A DNA stretch of 64,000 bases, taken from contig JAQWPZ010000095.1 of assembly GCA_029245125.1 (NCBI GenBank), positions 1-64,000 on the forward strand. Direction: 5' to 3'. Made by a program: the position numbers and the translations under genes. This stretch comes from Rubripirellula sp. (GTDB taxonomy: Bacteria; Planctomycetota; Planctomycetia; Pirellulales; Pirellulaceae). The notes under the pieces are model-generated. The model did no database searches and was not told the DNA's origin. It saw nothing but the letters and a program-made list of their open reading frames with translations. Shown here in pieces: positions 22,677 through 36,358 of this stretch (position 1 is its first letter; the number at the start of each line of letters is the position of its first letter).

Positions 22677-22704
22677 TTTCGCCAGTTGAACTAGCAGAGT
22701 CGTG

Positions 22705-24180
22705 ATGCCTTTATTCCCAATCGTATTCAATGCTTGCCCAGCCGCTGACAGCGGAGGTACGTCAGGCACCAGCTTGAAGTCGCTCGATTTCGACCTCTCG
22801 CAATTGAAACTTCTGGTCGTCGATAACGAAGCCGCTCATGCGCGAGCGATGACCGAGAGTCTCGAGAAAGTTGGATACACCTGCGAGGTTGCAACCAGCG
22901 GCCCCGAGGCGGCAAAGCTAATCGAGCAAGATACCTTCGATATCATCGTCACCGATATGGTGATGAATGATGTTGATGGAATGAAAATTCTGAACCTCGC
23001 CAAGCAACGGCTTCCCGATTGCGAAGTGGTGATGGTCACCGGCCACGCCACGGTGCCGATTGCTGTCGAAGCGATGCAGAAAGGCGCCTTTAACTTTCTC
23101 GAAAAACCGATCACCCCCAATCGATTGCGGGCGATTACCGAAAAGGCCGCCGAAGCAGTCGCGTTGAAGCGACGGAATACGGAACTCCTGCAACGGCTGG
23201 ACGAAAAGTTTGGATTCGAAGGCATCATCTACGCCAGTAAGAAGATGCAAAATGTGATCGATCGCATCCGTCGTATCGCCGCCACAGATGCCACGGTATT
23301 GATCACTGGTGAAAATGGAACGGGCAAGGAAGTGATTGCGCAAGCGATTCACCAAAACAGCCCACGACGGAACAAACGAATTGTTGCGATCAATACTGGC
23401 GCAATCGCTGAAAACCTAGTCGAGAGTGAGCTCTTCGGCCATGTAAAAGGCTCCTTCACTGATGCAGTCTCTGATCGCGAGGGAGCGTTTCAATACGCCA
23501 ACGGGGGTACGTTATTCCTCGATGAAATTGGTGACATGCCAGCCAACACGCAAATTAAATTGCTGCGAGTGCTGGAAGACAACCAAATCACTCGTGTTGG
23601 TGACAACAAGACGATCAAGGTCAACGTACGGCTGATTTCGGCGACGAATCGCCCCTTGGAAGAACTCATCGCAGCAGGACAATTCCGCAGCGATTTGTAC
23701 CACCGGCTGAAAGTCGTCACCGTCGAATTGCCCCCCTTGCGCGACCGATTGGAAGATGTCGTTCCGCTGATGGACCATTTCCGAAAACACTTTCTTCGAC
23801 GACACGATAAACCGGCGGCCCATTTTACCCCCGCTGTGACCAAGCGATTCTTTAGTTATGACTGGCCCGGAAACGTTCGGGAGTTACGCAACTTCGTCGA
23901 AACAATGGTCGTCTTGGACACCGACAGCAAGCTGGACATTGATGACTTGCCACCGGAACTCGCTGATGGTGACGAAACAATCGACATGGAACCGGTCTTG
24001 GCACTAGAAGGACAGTCCGATTTGGTTGGGCAACCATTAGCAGTGGTCGAGCGTTGGGCCATCGAAGAAACGCTGAAACTGACCAACGACAATCGCGAAG
24101 AAGCAGCCAAGATCCTTCAGATAGGCGCGAGAACACTGTACCGCCGCCTGGACCAATACAAAAAAGAAGACGAGTCGTAG
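22705..24180 (+). CDS. Sigma-54-dependent response regulator (NtrC family)
   Basis: This 491-aa two-component activator has a receiver domain at about 34-150, with phospho-acceptor D84 (IIVTDMVM) and K134 (FLEKPI). The AAA+ domain has Walker A GENGTGKE (202-209) and Walker B TLFLDEIGDMP (269-279). A Fis-type helix-turn-helix lies at the C-terminus (NREEAAKILQIGARTLYRR). The sigma-54 contact loop reads GSFTDA (249-254) instead of the usual GAFTGA, keeping the key Phe-Thr pair. No histidine kinase gene is adjacent, so its partner is unknown. The window holds two sigma-54-type promoters that such a protein could act on. Confidence 0.94.
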   Translation: MPLFPIVFNACPAADSGGTSGTSLKSLDFDLSQLKLLVVDNEAAHARAMTESLEKVGYTCEVATSGPEAAKLIEQDTFDIIVTDMVMNDVDGMKILNLAKQRLPDCEVVMVTGHATVPIAVEAMQKGAFNFLEKPITPNRLRAITEKAAEAVALKRRNTELLQRLDEKFGFEGIIYASKKMQNVIDRIRRIAATDATVLITGENGTGKEVIAQAIHQNSPRRNKRIVAINTGAIAENLVESELFGHVKGSFTDAVSDREGAFQYANGGTLFLDEIGDMPANTQIKLLRVLEDNQITRVGDNKTIKVNVRLISATNRPLEELIAAGQFRSDLYHRLKVVTVELPPLRDRLEDVVPLMDHFRKHFLRRHDKPAAHFTPAVTKRFFSYDWPGNVRELRNFVETMVVLDTDSKLDIDDLPPELADGDETIDMEPVLALEGQSDLVGQPLAVVERWAIEETLKLTNDNREEAAKILQIGARTLYRRLDQYKKEDES

Positions 24181-29346: not shown

Positions 29347-29591
29347 AGCGGGAACCGGTGGAAAGGGTTTTTAGCGGGTGAAAGCGTTCATTGTCGTCTC
29401 AAGCGGTGAGCAAAGCGACCCAAGGAATCTTGGAAACAAAAAAGTGCGTCCTTGTCACACGCGATGGGGTAGAACGACACACCATCCGCAGCAAAAAGGA
29501 AAGCACTTCGCCAGATTTTTATTTCAGAAATCACGCGTTTTTCAGAGTCAAAGAGCAAGCAAGACAAGTTGCGAATCGCCTTCACCCGATT
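29347..29591. other. Spacer with no gene seen
   Basis: This stretch upstream of the sigma-54-type site separates a minus-strand oxidoreductase from the small membrane protein gene. Short open frames exist, but none has coding character. Any enhancer site for a sigma-54 activator would be expected here. I saw no clear palindrome. Confidence 0.5.
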
Positions 29592-29606
29592 TGGCACGGA
29601 CTATGC
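29592..29606 (+). promoter_or_regulatory. Sigma-54-type promoter (TGGCACG-N4-ATGC)
   Basis: The -24 element TGGCACG matches the consensus exactly and the GG-N10-GC spacing is right. The -12 element is ATGCC where the consensus is TTGCA. The expected start of transcription is near 29618, leaving a 5' leader of about 38 bases before the ATG at 29656. The site is intergenic and in the right orientation. Confidence 0.6.
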
Positions 29607-29655
29607 CCCATGAAGAGCTGTCGAATGATTGTTTGGTACGTGCAAGGACAATTCC

Positions 29656-29781
29656 ATGAGCCAATTACGAAAACTACACGAACTGCATGAGAAACACGAA
29701 AACCTGTGGTGGATTCTACTCGCCGTGATCGCTGCAATCGGACTGCTTTTATTCTCGAGCAGCGTCATCGGTATCGTCTAA
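29656..29781 (+). CDS. Small single-pass membrane protein (41 aa)
   Basis: This gene is too short for usual gene calling. The product has a charged, His-rich N-terminal half (residues 1-16, including RKLHELHEKHEN), then one hydrophobic helix of about 24 residues starting at WWILLAVIAAIGLLLF. It has no Cys and no signal-peptidase site, so it should remain as an inner-membrane anchor. Support for expression comes from a good Shine-Dalgarno sequence (aagga, 29644-29648) seven bases before the ATG and a sigma-54-type promoter 50 bases upstream. I recognise no family. A stress-linked membrane peptide is the simplest guess. Confidence 0.65.
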   Translation: MSQLRKLHELHEKHENLWWILLAVIAAIGLLLFSSSVIGIV

Positions 29782-30328
29782 AGGGCGTCTCCTGCTTCGA
29801 CCTTGGCGAACGGTATTTCTGATGAATGCGGTGACCTTGGAACGTTGTGCTCCATTGGCCAAGATGTAGCACCCGTTGGATTTGGTTGACCTTCCGAAAT
29901 CGTCAACCGGAAAGGACGAGTTGTTGGTGCGGGTGCATGCCAGAGGAGGCTGACCTCGCGAATCCAACGAAACAGAGGGGCGGCTTCGACTGCCGATGTT
30001 GCTTGGCCACAAGACCACCGACGGAAAATATCGGGGATTACCCTAGCAGGACGAAAATTTCGCCAAAGCGGTCGAATGAAGCCTTGATAAACCTGGGAGC
30101 AGGAGGCATCGAATGCGCGAACCGCTTGATGATGTGATCGTTGTCTCACCCTGAATCGTTGACTCGTCCTGAACAGTCTCGATCGAGCTAAACCGGAAAG
30201 TATTCATCAAAATCGTCCTTCGCCGACTCACGAGATGATCAGAAGAATAGCGATCGATGGAATGCACCTCACCATCTGTTTATGATGGAGTTGATAACGC
30301 CACTCCTGTGACCCGAAAGGTACGATCC
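29782..30328. other. 547-base spacer, no convincing gene
   Basis: Between the 41-residue membrane protein and the next oxidoreductase I find only weak overlapping open frames on both strands. A minus-strand frame of 123 codons (29778-30149) overlaps the stop codon of the small gene and lacks any motif. No terminator hairpin with a T-run is evident. Confidence 0.5.
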
Positions 30329-31699
30329 ATGCAAAATCCTCGCCCATTCAACCGACGTCGTTTCATTCAGGGGGCGACTGCCGCAGGTGCTTGTGGGTTG
30401 TTTCATGGATCGACTCGAGTCGCTTTAGGCCAAGACTCGCCAAATGATCGCCCCACCTTCGCCACAATCGGTCTTCGCAATCAGGGTTGGGCAATCACTT
30501 CCAAGTCGTTCAAGTTTGCCGACTTTGCGGCGATGGCGGATGTGGACACCAACGTGCTAGGTGCGAATCTCGAAAAAGCCAAAGCGAGCCAGGGAAAGAA
30601 GCCGGACGGCTACGGAGACTATCGAAAAATCCTTGATCGTCAGGACATTGACGCCGTCATGATCGCGACACCCGATCATTGGCACACCAAGATTGCTTTA
30701 GAAGCGATGAGTGCTGGCAAGGATGTTTACTGTGAGAAACCGCTAACACTAACAATCGCCGAAGGCAAACTGATTGAACAAGCAGTGAAAGCAACCGGAC
30801 GTGTCTTTCAAGTTGGCACGATGCAACGGAGCGAATCTGGTCAGCGATTTCTTCAAGCAGTCGCTCTAGTCAATCATGGACGAATTGGCACAGTGAAGCG
30901 GGTGACATGCGGGATCAATGGTATGGCAGCGTCACCTGTAATCCCGGTTGTCGATGTACCGCAGGGGTTGGACTGGGATACTTGGCTGGGACCAGCTCCC
31001 AAGGTTCCATACCGTGCATTGCCGGAAATGCGGAAAGGGTATGGTGGCGGAGTTCCGTTGTACAGCAATTGTCATTACGCGTTCCGAAACTGGCATGAAT
31101 ACTCCGGCGGCAAACTGACGGACTGGGGTGCACACCATGTCGACATCGCATGCTGGGCACTCGGTGCAAGCGATACGGGACCGAGCAAAGTAACACCGCT
31201 AGAGTTTTCGTTACCCGTTGAATACAAGGATGGGAACCCTGTCGTTCAAGATCAGTACAACGCGGCCACGCAATTCAAGATCCAAGTCGATATGCCGAAC
31301 AACGTCGAACTGATCATCACCAGTGAGGGCGATAACGGAATCATGTTCGAGGGCACCAAAGGCCGCTTCTTTGTCAACCGTGGCAAGATTGCCGGCAAAC
31401 CAGTGGAAGATCTTGCTGATAATCCACTGCCTGATGGAGCGATTGAGGAAGTCTATGGTGGCAAAGTCAGCGCGAACCACACCGCGAACTTCATCGAAGC
31501 AATGCAGGCCCGAAAACAACCCATCTCGGACGTTTGGACCCACAACCGAATGCTTGAGATCTGCCACCTTTCCAACATCGCAATGCGTTTGAACCGAGCC
31601 TTAAAATGGGATCCCACGAAACGGGAAATCATCGGCGACGCACAAGCGAACTCGTTCCTGGCACGCAAGAATCGCAAAGGCTTCGAAATCGATGCCTGA
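30329..31699 (+). CDS. Gfo/Idh/MocA family oxidoreductase with Tat signal
   Basis: This 456-aa protein has the same plan as the protein at 27898-29346. A twin-arginine leader (FNRRRFIQGATAAGACGLF) is followed by a Rossmann domain (TFATIGLRNQGWAI), IATPDHWHTKIALEAM, KDVYCEKPLTLTIAEGK and the C-terminal alpha/beta domain with LTDWGAHHVDIACWAL. The frame is open from 30257. The ATG at 30329 was chosen because gaaagg (30315-30320) lies eight bases before it and the Tat motif then falls at residue 8. Likely a periplasmic sugar-modifying enzyme. Confidence 0.9.
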   Translation: MQNPRPFNRRRFIQGATAAGACGLFHGSTRVALGQDSPNDRPTFATIGLRNQGWAITSKSFKFADFAAMADVDTNVLGANLEKAKASQGKKPDGYGDYRKILDRQDIDAVMIATPDHWHTKIALEAMSAGKDVYCEKPLTLTIAEGKLIEQAVKATGRVFQVGTMQRSESGQRFLQAVALVNHGRIGTVKRVTCGINGMAASPVIPVVDVPQGLDWDTWLGPAPKVPYRALPEMRKGYGGGVPLYSNCHYAFRNWHEYSGGKLTDWGAHHVDIACWALGASDTGPSKVTPLEFSLPVEYKDGNPVVQDQYNAATQFKIQVDMPNNVELIITSEGDNGIMFEGTKGRFFVNRGKIAGKPVEDLADNPLPDGAIEEVYGGKVSANHTANFIEAMQARKQPISDVWTHNRMLEICHLSNIAMRLNRALKWDPTKREIIGDAQANSFLARKNRKGFEIDA

Positions 31700-32241: not shown

Positions 32242-32298
32242 GATTCTGTTCGTGGAATCGACTCTGGCACTGCGATTGCATCAGAACACAACAGAATC
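32242..32298. repeat. 9-bp inverted repeat bracketing the sigma-54 promoter
   Basis: GATTCTGTT at 32242-32250 and its exact reverse complement AACAGAATC at 32290-32298 flank the promoter at 32265-32280, with the right arm over the predicted start of transcription. They could be two half-sites of a regulator, or chance. Confidence 0.5.
32265..32280 (+). promoter_or_regulatory. Sigma-54-type promoter (TGGCACT-N4-TTGCA)
   Basis: The sequence reads TGGCAC, five bases, TTGCA. It matches 6 of 7 at -24 and 5 of 5 at -12, with exact GG-N10-GC spacing. The predicted start of transcription is near 32291, about 43 bases before the ATG at 32334. This is the best promoter match seen in the window and heads the stress-protein genes. 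Confidence 0.75.
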
Positions 32299-32333: not shown

Positions 32334-33248
32334 ATGAGACGCATCGTGATCGCATCGGATGGTTCGATAGGTGCCGAGGAAGCCGCTTGGTTGCTCTCCC
32401 ACCTGCCGCATCGGGAACAGATCGAGGTGTTCGTACTGACAGTTCTGCAGATCCCCACGGTTTACGCTCACGGATCTCCCGGCTCGATGTCCGAATCGGT
32501 CGATCGCGAACGCCAAGCAGCCCAGCGAGCCTATGAGCATATCGCCGGGATGTTTGAGGGTGCCAACGCATCAATCGAACACATCATCCGCGAGGGGCAT
32601 CGAGGTAAGGCTATTGTTGATGCTGCTCGCGAACACAACGCTGATCTGATTGTCTTGGGAGCACGTGGTCAATCGACCGTGCGGCGATTACTGCTGGGAA
32701 GCATCAGTGACTACGTTGCCACCCATGCGCACTGTAGTGTGTTGGTCGTGCGTCCCACCGGGATTCGCGAACAAAAGCGACCGATTCGAATCGCGATCGG
32801 CTACGAGAACGGTGGCCCTGCGGAGGCATCGTTACGAGAATTCTGTAACACACCATGGGGTGGTCAATCAGAAGTTCACACCGTTTCGGTTGTCTCTTAT
32901 GTTTCCGCGTTTCTGAATGAAATCGTGGTCGAAACAGACGAGACCAAAGCCGCCGCAACATCCGCGTTAGAAGCTGCGACAGAACAGGTGCGAACCTCAG
33001 CACCTAACGTTCAATCGCACCTCGTAGAATGCGACCACATCGGCGAAGGCCTGATCGAATTCATTGAAGAGCACGGAATTGATTTGGTCGTCGTTGGAGA
33101 ATCTCAGCATTCAGCATTAGGTCGAGTGCTGTTAGGTAGTGTCTCACAATTCGTCTTGCGGCATGCTGCTTGCAGTGTTTGGGTGACGCGGAACCAAGCG
33201 GTGAGTGAAACAGTCGATGACCCACCGCCAACAGGTGCTGATCAATGA
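32334..33248 (+). CDS. Universal stress protein, two-domain
   Basis: This 304-aa cytoplasmic protein has two Usp folds. The first (1-140) ends in the ATP-binding pattern GARGQSTVRRLLLGSISDYV followed by HCSVLVV. The second (150-290) has GESQHSALGRVLLGSVSQFV, where the second Gly of the G-2x-G-9x-G pattern is Gln, so nucleotide binding there may be weakened. An in-frame ATG at 32316 exists, but 32334 is preferred because the gggga run lies ahead of it. First gene behind a sigma-54-type promoter. Its stop overlaps the next start. Confidence 0.92.
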   Translation: MRRIVIASDGSIGAEEAAWLLSHLPHREQIEVFVLTVLQIPTVYAHGSPGSMSESVDRERQAAQRAYEHIAGMFEGANASIEHIIREGHRGKAIVDAAREHNADLIVLGARGQSTVRRLLLGSISDYVATHAHCSVLVVRPTGIREQKRPIRIAIGYENGGPAEASLREFCNTPWGGQSEVHTVSVVSYVSAFLNEIVVETDETKAAATSALEAATEQVRTSAPNVQSHLVECDHIGEGLIEFIEEHGIDLVVVGESQHSALGRVLLGSVSQFVLRHAACSVWVTRNQAVSETVDDPPPTGADQ

Positions 33249-34198
33249 AACGCTTCAAACACATCCTCATGTACGCGGGCACCGAGAGAACCGAGGCTGC
33301 TATCGCTCGAGCCGTAACATTGGCAATTGAGAACGATGCTCGATTGACATTAATGGATGTGGTGAAACGAGTTCCGCGGGCCTTGAGTGTGCTCAGTGAT
33401 GCCACTGGGCCAGAAGAAATTGAACAGCTCTTGTGTCAGGATCACCAGCAAAAGCTGTTAAAAATTGCGAGCGAATATATCGACACGGATGTGTCGATCG
33501 ATACCGTGGTGACTGTCGGCGACCCAGCGACAGAAATCGTCCAACGCGTCTTGTCAGACCAATATGACTTGGTGATCAAATGCGCTGATGGGATGTCCTC
33601 CGCCGGTCGTCTATTCGGAAGCGTCGCGCGGTCCCTGTTGAGGATATGTCCTTGTCCGCTGTGGATTCTCAAACCTGAGATTCATGGTGAATTTGACCGA
33701 GTGCTGGCCGCGGTCGACATGGAATCCCATGATCAGGCACATGCAAACCTGAATCGCGAGATCTTCGGCTTGGCAGCGTCGATCGCCACCCGAGAAAACG
33801 CACAATTGGATGTCGTGACCGCCTGGGATGTCTGGATGGAAAATGCCTTACGGCGACGCTCTGGGGATACAGAGATTGACACGTTGGTGCATCAACACGA
33901 ACAACAAGTCCGCAATCGTCTTCATGAACTATTGCAGACTTCTGAGAATTCAGTTCCGGAATCTCAATGCCACGTTTATCGCGGACATGCAGCCGGTGTG
34001 GTCCGGTCGGTGGCTGATCGTCTGGAAGCAGACTTATTGGTCATGGGAACGGTTTGTCGAACCGGCGCCGCTGGATTCCTGATCGGCAACACAGCTGAAA
34101 CTGTCTTGGCCGATATCACCTGTTCGATTCTTGCCTTGAAACCTGAGGGTTTCATCTCGCCGATCGAGATGGCCACTGACACCAACCCACCTAACTGA
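33245..34198 (+). CDS. Universal stress protein, UspE-like
   Basis: This 317-aa tandem Usp protein starts with KRFKHILMYAGTERTEAAIARAV and has VIKCADGMSSAGRLFGSVARSLLRICPCPLWIL in the first half. The second half ends in LLVMGTVCRTGAAGFLIGNTAETVLADITCSILALKPEGF. This 'GTVxRTGxxGxLIGNTAE' block is typical of UspE proteins linked to stress, motility and anaerobic growth. It is coupled to the preceding gene by an ATGA overlap and is 28 bases before the cytochrome gene. Confidence 0.92.
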   Translation: MKRFKHILMYAGTERTEAAIARAVTLAIENDARLTLMDVVKRVPRALSVLSDATGPEEIEQLLCQDHQQKLLKIASEYIDTDVSIDTVVTVGDPATEIVQRVLSDQYDLVIKCADGMSSAGRLFGSVARSLLRICPCPLWILKPEIHGEFDRVLAAVDMESHDQAHANLNREIFGLAASIATRENAQLDVVTAWDVWMENALRRRSGDTEIDTLVHQHEQQVRNRLHELLQTSENSVPESQCHVYRGHAAGVVRSVADRLEADLLVMGTVCRTGAAGFLIGNTAETVLADITCSILALKPEGFISPIEMATDTNPPN

Positions 34199-34226: not shown

Positions 34227-34736
34227 ATGAAACGATTCATTATCCCACTCGCCGCCTTGTTAACTGCCCTCGTTGCCGGCTCTGCACAAAGCGACCCACC
34301 ACTGGTTGCGCAACAGGCAACCGTCGCTCAGAAAGCGGTCGAAAAGTCGGCTGAGAATTCAAAGCCCGCCAAAGTGCTGCCACTGATGCAGCTCAAATTA
34401 GAGAAATCGAAAAAGATCCTCGAGGGTTTGGCCTTGGAAGATTACGACATGATCGGCAAACATGCTCGATCCCTCAAACTGCTGAGCTTGGAGGCGGGTT
34501 GGAATGTAATCCAAACGGAAGAGTACGCGATCCAAAGCCGTGACTTTCGCCGCACGTGCGATCTGATCGCGAAAGCGGCGAAAGAAAAAGAGATCGGCCG
34601 AGCCGCTTTAGGATACGTGGCATTGACTGTCCGTTGCGTCGAATGCCATGCCTACATGCGAGAACACAAGGTCGATGTCGCTCGAGCACCCGCCCTTGAG
34701 ACAAAGCCATCCCTCGATGTAACGCAAGCCAAATAA
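34227..34736 (+). CDS. Periplasmic c-type cytochrome
   Basis: This 169-aa protein has a signal peptide (IIPLAALLTALVAGSAQS) and a single haem-binding CVECH motif at 137-141, near the C-terminus. The preceding region is helical (residues 51-130), as in the four-helix class II cytochrome c-prime fold, which also keeps its CxxCH near the end. A Shine-Dalgarno-like gaaagg lies ahead of the ATG. Its place after two universal stress proteins suggests a role in respiration or redox defence under low oxygen or stress, which is inference. Confidence 0.8.
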   Translation: MKRFIIPLAALLTALVAGSAQSDPPLVAQQATVAQKAVEKSAENSKPAKVLPLMQLKLEKSKKILEGLALEDYDMIGKHARSLKLLSLEAGWNVIQTEEYAIQSRDFRRTCDLIAKAAKEKEIGRAALGYVALTVRCVECHAYMREHKVDVARAPALETKPSLDVTQAK

Positions 34737-34795: not shown

Positions 34796-36358
34796 GTGGC
34801 TGCTCATCTGCAAACCAGTGTGAATCCGCTTTCCAGTTCTGAACTGATCGCGGACCTGCAGTCGGCCAAGGCTTATCCCCAGCAGTTCAATGACCCCATC
34901 GTGTTGCATGAGACACACGTCTCGTGGGTCCTGCTGGCAGGTGAGTTCGCTTACAAGATCAAGAAGCCTCTGAAAATCAGCTTTCTAGATTACTCGACAC
35001 AGGCTCTGCGCGAACAATTCTGTCACGAAGAAATCCGTTTGGATCGTCGCTACACGTCTGATCTCTACCTCGGTGTCGTACCCATCACCATGATCAATGG
35101 GCACGCGAAAATCGAGGGAGCCGGTTCGCCAATCGAGTTTGCCGTCAAAATGAGGCGTTTCCCTGAAGATGCCTTGCTGAGCCATCGCATCGAACTTGGA
35201 CTGTTATCTTCTGCTGATGTTAACCAGTTGGCCGGTTCAATTGCAGCGTTCCACCACACTGCCGATCGTTGGAAAGAATCCCGTTCATTTGCGACCACAA
35301 CTCAAGTTGCCAAGGATTTTCACGACTGCTTGGATGATCTCGCCATCAGCGTGGTAGCGGACCAAACGACCAGCAGTCGCAACCGTCTGAAAGCTTGGGC
35401 GACCGAGTTCATGGCCGACCACGGCCACCAATTTGAAACTCGAATCAGTGACGGTTTCATCCGAGAATGCCATGGTGATCTCCACTTGGACAACGTTGTT
35501 CGAGTGGGTGATCGGTTGGTACCCTTCGATGGTATCGAATTCAACGACTCATTCCGGTGGATTGATGTCTTAAACGACGCCGCATTTCTAGTGATGGACT
35601 TCGCTGCCCATAACCAGCCGAATTTTGGTCTGCAATTCTTGAATGCGTACCTGGAACAAACTGGCGATTACGAATCGTTAATGTTGATGAGATGGTACTT
35701 GGTTTATCGTGCACTGGTACGCGCAAAAGTGGCCGCGATTCGTGCCGCACAAGAACCAGGCCATGACTCAATCGCACAGCGCGACTGCGCGGAGCATATT
35801 AGTCTCGCTGAGCAATTCGCGCATCCCAAACCTGTGACACTGTGGATCACGCATGGTCTGAGTGGCAGTGGTAAAACAACCATCAGCAGTATCTACACCA
35901 CCCACCACGGTGCCATTCGGTTGCGGTCTGATCTAGAACGGAAGCGTCTGTTTCAGCTCGCCACAACAACGCGGACGAGTTACGACCAGCGTGACAAGAT
36001 CTACAGCTCGGACGCGACTGAGCGGAACTACAAGCGACTGCTCGATTTGGCTGACAAGATCCTGAGAAGTGGATTCTCGGTAATCGTCGATGCGACATTC
36101 TTAAAGCAGACTCATCGTGCTGCGTTCCATGATTTGGCCAAACGACTCAACATCGCTTGGGGAATTTTGAATTGCGAGCAGAAGGTCGATGTCCTACGGA
36201 ACCGAATTACCGCACGCTTGACCGCCGAACGCGACGCATCGGAGGCGGATCTCAGCGTCCTAGAGCATCAAATGGACACCCGGGAACCACTGACTCCGAT
36301 CGAACGCCAGTCAATCGTGCCCCACCTGCCTGACACGTCAGATCGAATCAAACGCTAG
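34796..36358 (+). CDS. APH-like kinase fused to a P-loop kinase domain
   Basis: This 520-aa cytoplasmic protein has an N-terminal aminoglycoside-phosphotransferase-like domain with CHGDLHLDNV (225-234) and PFDGIEFN (243-250). The Lys of FAYKIKKP would bind ATP. The C-terminal gluconate-kinase-like P-loop domain has Walker A GLSGSGKT (about 354-361) and VIVDATFLK. This two-kinase fusion is known in stress-regulated gene sets of proteobacteria beside universal stress proteins, but its substrate is not established. The GTG at 34796 follows the cytochrome gene by 59 bases, so it is probably the last gene of the sigma-54 operon. Confidence 0.85.
   Translation: MAAHLQTSVNPLSSSELIADLQSAKAYPQQFNDPIVLHETHVSWVLLAGEFAYKIKKPLKISFLDYSTQALREQFCHEEIRLDRRYTSDLYLGVVPITMINGHAKIEGAGSPIEFAVKMRRFPEDALLSHRIELGLLSSADVNQLAGSIAAFHHTADRWKESRSFATTTQVAKDFHDCLDDLAISVVADQTTSSRNRLKAWATEFMADHGHQFETRISDGFIRECHGDLHLDNVVRVGDRLVPFDGIEFNDSFRWIDVLNDAAFLVMDFAAHNQPNFGLQFLNAYLEQTGDYESLMLMRWYLVYRALVRAKVAAIRAAQEPGHDSIAQRDCAEHISLAEQFAHPKPVTLWITHGLSGSGKTTISSIYTTHHGAIRLRSDLERKRLFQLATTTRTSYDQRDKIYSSDATERNYKRLLDLADKILRSGFSVIVDATFLKQTHRAAFHDLAKRLNIAWGILNCEQKVDVLRNRITARLTAERDASEADLSVLEHQMDTREPLTPIERQSIVPHLPDTSDRIKR

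Follow-up and report, generated by a model that had tools for sequence, protein, structure and literature searches.

In the 64,000-nucleotide stretch of DNA analysed here (the window), a reading frame of 41 codons lies behind a match to the sigma-54 promoter consensus. The questions are whether this frame is a genuine gene, whether sigma-54 polymerase would transcribe it, and what such a small protein could do. Three features define the locus:

29592-29606, forward strand: sigma-54-type promoter TGGCACGGACTATGC (-24/-12), matching the consensus at 9 of 10 bases; transcription is expected to start near 29618
29644-29648, forward strand: Shine-Dalgarno-like AAGGA, 7-nt spacer before the ATG, read from the sequence
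29656-29781 (stop included), forward strand: gene for a predicted 41-residue single-pass membrane protein, supported by relatives of 93, 72 and 71% identity, dN/dS and AlphaFold2

The small gene and its conservation

The frame begins with ATG and translates to MSQLRKLHELHEKHENLWWILLAVIAAIGLLLFSSSVIGIV. The closest relative carries GAGGA at the position matching the AAGGA of the window. At 123 nt, the coding sequence is longer than the minimum gene length in common gene finders. Residues 20-38 have a mean Kyte-Doolittle hydropathy of 2.67, and the AlphaFold2 model contains one helix spanning residues 3-38, with a mean pLDDT of 80. By hydropathy and AlphaFold2, the product belongs to the class of small proteins with fewer than 50 residues and one membrane helix. 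Both the gene with its Shine-Dalgarno sequence and the single long hydrophobic helix proposed in the earlier note stand, with the frame kept in relatives. The charged, His-rich stretch that it described is present as HELHEKHE, but it is restricted to the protein's own subfamily.

Sequence searches of Pfam, NCBIfam, PHROGs and PDB with the small protein gave no significant match, and Rfam gave none in the region of the gene (29350-30350), which argues against a structured RNA family there.

At the genus level, we searched one genome per species and found the small gene in four of 22 genomes at E<1e-13, window genome included. The same-genus loci come from metagenome-assembled genomes labelled Rubripirellula or Rhodopirellula. 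The frame is free of stops in all three relatives. An antisense or other-frame gene was considered and rejected, since none of the five other frames stays open throughout the four relatives. Against the closest relative (G016), dN/dS is 0.12 and third-position changes dominate; the remaining two relatives show saturation at synonymous sites, with dN of 0.19 and 0.30. Judged from these codon comparisons, the peptide is under purifying selection. The comparisons confirm 29656-29781 as a genuine conserved gene for a predicted single-helix membrane protein. A family member of any subfamily occurs in only 5 of the 22 genus genomes (G001 among them), so the small gene is dispensable.

The promoter

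The -24 half of TGGCACGGACTATGC is perfect, as the earlier note had claimed, and the -12 half has one mismatch (ATGC vs. TTGC). The site has the core of such promoters, that is, GG at -24 and GC at -12 with the fixed spacing, near TGGCACN5TTGC. It ends 49 nt before the ATG. When the upstream 160 nt were shuffled 1000 times, 3 shuffles contained an equally good match.

Both frame and promoter are kept together in the three same-genus genomes besides the window genome, which was the joint conservation to look for. The distance from the -12 box to the ATG is 46-49 nt in all four genomes, and 46-47 nt in the two distant ones among them, L025 and L026. In these two, the promoter's surroundings bear no relation to those in the window, with 28-32% identity once the site itself is set aside, and yet 8-9 of the 10 promoter bases match. 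Across seven sequences, GGCA and TGC are invariant, compared with none of the 85 flanking columns. Because the presence of GG and GC had been the criterion for selecting the sites compared, these four bases are not independent evidence; the remaining core bases, C, A and T, are the better evidence. Taken together, the sequence evidence indicates that the small gene is most likely transcribed by sigma-54 polymerase.

No convincing shared motif for an activator-binding site was found in the 230 nt upstream of the small genes; the dyads and common 8-mers considered as candidates were at chance level only. No sigma-70-like promoter was recognised on either strand of 29350-30350, where planctomycete promoters may differ from the pattern searched.

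Neighbours in the window

The surroundings of the small gene contain further genes that bear on its regulation:

22702-24180, forward strand: NtrC-type response regulator with receiver, sigma-54 activator and Fis HTH domains (PF00072, PF00158, PF02954)
32265-32279, forward strand: second sigma-54-type promoter, perfect TGGCACTGCGATTGC, kept before the orthologous universal stress protein gene in L024, L025 and L026
32316-33248, forward strand: universal stress protein (USP), two Usp domains (PF00582, E 1.9e-46)
33245-34198, forward strand: second USP, two Usp domains (PF00582, E 3.8e-37)
34227-34736, forward strand: cytochrome c'-like protein, probably exported, with a CVECH haem motif and a four-helix bundle; CxxCH in 9 of 9 homologues
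34796-36358, forward strand: APH-like and AAA_33 kinase-like protein (PF13671, E 4.3e-32; PF01636 below cut-off)

The USP pair lies 2.7 kb downstream of the small gene, and TGGCACTGCGATTGC stands 36 nt before the first USP reading frame. With this separate promoter in front of the USP genes, the small gene is outside their operon. For the cytochrome c'-like protein there was no significant family match; its best sequence and fold matches, all weak, are mostly cytochromes c' and a small soluble cytochrome c. In other genera its homologues are again found next to the small gene, and several of them follow a sigma-54-type site. The kinase-like gene also recurs in the cluster, with homologues in L024-L026, L156 and L163. 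The NtrC-type regulator, 5.5 kb upstream, shares 37% identity with the NtrC-type gene that adjoins the small gene in g14, and it is only a candidate for the activator of the small gene.

As a separate observation, at L024:3354-5006 (also in L002) a tandem VTRP repeat with a masked run lies close to the start of the GFO/IDH/MocA gene; the unit is single in the window, near 30310.

Related proteins in Pirellulaceae

Profile searches detected related proteins of 36-42 residues elsewhere in the family, in no fewer than five other genera and tentatively in three more. They share a basic N-terminus, mostly E-x-x-(F/W)-W, and one helix. A second subfamily, in g37 (MSRINWKDSPHEKIFWISVIVIAIMSLLIFAKTVAG), was reached at E about 1e-4 with a profile of four sequences that did not yet include any g37 member, and most proteins of this subfamily have a sigma-54-type site of their own. 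Widened profiles added members in g14, g97, g38, g24, g90, g11 and g7, plus G001 of the same genus. Homology to the family is tentative for the most distant members (g7, g38 and g11), because between subfamilies it is read from short sequences and shared context. These diverged relatives, together with the same-genus ones, carry the conservation of the frame well past the species, the limit at which the earlier note would have given up its reading.

Across 17 family sequences, E15, W19, A26 and G39 are invariant. The conservation is carried by one face of the helix (permutation P 0.022), and the N-terminus is the least conserved part between subfamilies. Sigma-54-type sites precede the related tiny genes in g37 and g14, and weaker ones precede those of G057 and G222, where the tiny gene lies before PEP synthase; the g7 members have a TATAAT-like box and no sigma-54-type site.

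When 268 genomes of the class were searched by profile, full-length matches were found only inside family f1, which gives no support to a spread beyond it. Partial hits, and weak ones within long frames, were discarded (L020, L021, L022, L091, L093 and others). A combined search for the promoter and the pattern E-[KN]-x-[FW]-W in 392 genomes of the phylum returned the window locus and five background-like hits elsewhere. This family of tiny planctomycete proteins is apparently undescribed so far.

Gene neighbourhoods and a shared regulon

The recurring neighbours of the small gene are USPs, cytochrome c'-like proteins, group-3b-type hydrogenase, zinc alcohol dehydrogenase, PEP synthase and an NtrC-type regulator. 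In L025 and L026, the small gene is followed directly by the zinc alcohol dehydrogenase and then by the same USP pair; upstream, L025 carries group-3b-type hydrogenase genes and a USP, and hydrogenase genes of this type are also near the small gene in L165. In g14 it sits between a USP and an NtrC-type regulator, and in g24 and g90 directly before a USP. The genomes hold 7-11 USP genes in 7-11 Mb, yet the USP is a direct neighbour in these three groups. In g97, a cytochrome c'-like gene lies just upstream (0.2-0.6 kb, as in G001), with PEP synthase downstream in two of the three loci. No USP is nearby in g7, g38 and the WKDSP subfamily of g37. The window genome and G016 lack the alcohol dehydrogenase and keep the small gene with its promoter, so the small gene is independent of this neighbour.

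Moreover, several clusters have sigma-54-type sites, none with more than one mismatch, ahead of USP, cytochrome c'-like and Crp/hydrogenase-type genes (the Crp-type genes being named from their own sequence rather than by family search). The shared regulon that the earlier note had suggested from the second site is therefore supported by sites in several genomes. In the window's own genome, perfect TGGCACN5TTGC sites precede hsp20 (Hsp20-like), groES and dnaK, so named from their sequences, at L049, L062 and L067. The small-gene cluster resembles a low-oxygen or energy-stress regulon.

Two further loci differ. At L046:884-1504 (G012), a different, larger membrane protein is encoded between a sigma-54-type site and the alcohol dehydrogenase. 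In L166, four copies of CGGCACATACTTTGC lie on the minus strand between 4.7 and 5.7 kb upstream of the small gene, at a spacing of about 275-350 bp.

Proposed role and alternatives

The content of the cluster resembles DosR-type low-oxygen programmes, so a stress-induced, partner-modulating, single-pass role is the most likely one. We propose that sigma-54 polymerase would transcribe the small gene once an NtrC-type activator switches it on, with low oxygen or energy stress as the presumed stimulus. By the positive-inside rule, the charged N-terminus LHELHEKHEN would most likely be cytoplasmic, and one helix (about 18-38) would cross the inner membrane. Its conserved face (E15, W19, L22, A26, G29/L30, F33 and V37) may dock on a membrane protein or on itself, and the docked protein may then adjust the bound complex during stress. 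USPs, cytochrome c'-like proteins, alcohol dehydrogenase, PEP synthase and group-3b-type hydrogenase would be co-regulated with it across Pirellulaceae.

That the gene is genuine and belongs to the regulon is highly probable. The explanation as a whole, a stress-induced single-pass protein acting via its conserved helix face on a membrane partner, we regard as likely, and the partner-modulating mechanism on its own falls somewhat short of probable. More tentatively still, this sigma-54-controlled single-helix family could be a dedicated effector of a planctomycete low-oxygen or energy-stress regulon, similar to that of DosR and run by sigma-54 and an NtrC-type activator.

The main rival of docking is a direct, YohP-like action on the membrane. 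A dormancy peptide of the YohP/TisB kind would insert, lower the proton motive force and quiet metabolism with no specific partner. Size, single helix and stress regulon all fit, and YohP, a protein of 27 aa, lowers the membrane potential and silences metabolism (PMC12719787). However, the four invariant residues and the conserved face suggest a specific partner, and the opposite strand offers no sigma-70-like promoter for an antisense RNA antitoxin. We consider this action unlikely.

Less likely again, and about equal to each other, are two readings drawn from the neighbours. The protein might recruit a USP to the membrane through its cytoplasmic N-terminus, as the USP genes directly beside it in g14, g24 and g90, and close by in g1, would suggest; against this, most g37, g7 and g38 loci are without a nearby USP, and the part that would bind one varies most between subfamilies. 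Alternatively, it might be an accessory subunit of a respiratory or redox enzyme, hydrogenase- or cytochrome-linked for example, as CydX is of cytochrome bd. The cytochrome c'-like genes of g97 and G001 and the hydrogenase genes of L025 and L165 are consistent with this, but no oxidase was recognised beside the small gene, the protein matches no known small-subunit family, and group 3b hydrogenases are soluble enzymes.

A leader peptide that regulates the alcohol dehydrogenase downstream of it by being translated would suit the close spacing in L025 and L026, but it is very improbable given a peptide sequence under purifying selection and the genomes that lack the dehydrogenase. Finally, a chance frame beside a chance promoter match, suggested by sigma-54-like matches (≤2 mismatches) only slightly above chance in the window and by 23 perfect matches in the genome vs. 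15 for the reversed pattern, is refuted by the conservation of frame and promoter at large divergence.

The tie of a conserved planctomycete family to a sigma-54 regulon with USPs and redox enzymes provides testable genes, residues and promoters, and it marks planctomycete genes that probably respond together. Small membrane proteins induced by stress are still little understood, and E. coli is the organism in which they are best known.

Comparison with known systems

CydX/YbgT of cytochrome bd is likewise a tiny single-helix membrane protein. Its family model was not among the Pfam or NCBIfam hits of the small protein, and cydAB was not recognised in the window neighbourhood, the flanking reading frames of relatives being annotated in part. 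For type I toxins (TisB, Hok), neither a sigma-70-like promoter for the antisense antitoxin nor an Rfam match was found in 29350-30350, a region where planctomycete promoters may look different.

YohP and other stress-induced single-pass proteins of E. coli likewise have fewer than 50 residues, one helix and a link to stress, which here would follow from promoter and neighbours. No sequence relation to them is shown; the present family has a sigma-54-type promoter and a conserved helix face, and it is confined to one planctomycete family.

In the accessible part of a survey of Planctomycetia (PMC12316311), USP and chaperone COGs are enriched behind sigma-54 promoters, in line with the sites at 32265 and elsewhere here. 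That part mentions no tiny membrane protein, so the present family would add to the regulon.

Finally, the DosR regulon of mycobacteria contains USPs, and the NiFe hydrogenase Hyd3 of M. smegmatis is induced under limited oxygen (PMC2799521, PMC2914252). The likeness is one of gene content (USPs, NiFe hydrogenase), from which an oxygen response may be expected here. The transcription machinery differs, sigma-54 with an NtrC-type activator being predicted in Pirellulaceae, and we claim a parallel in regulon content, not homology of the regulators.
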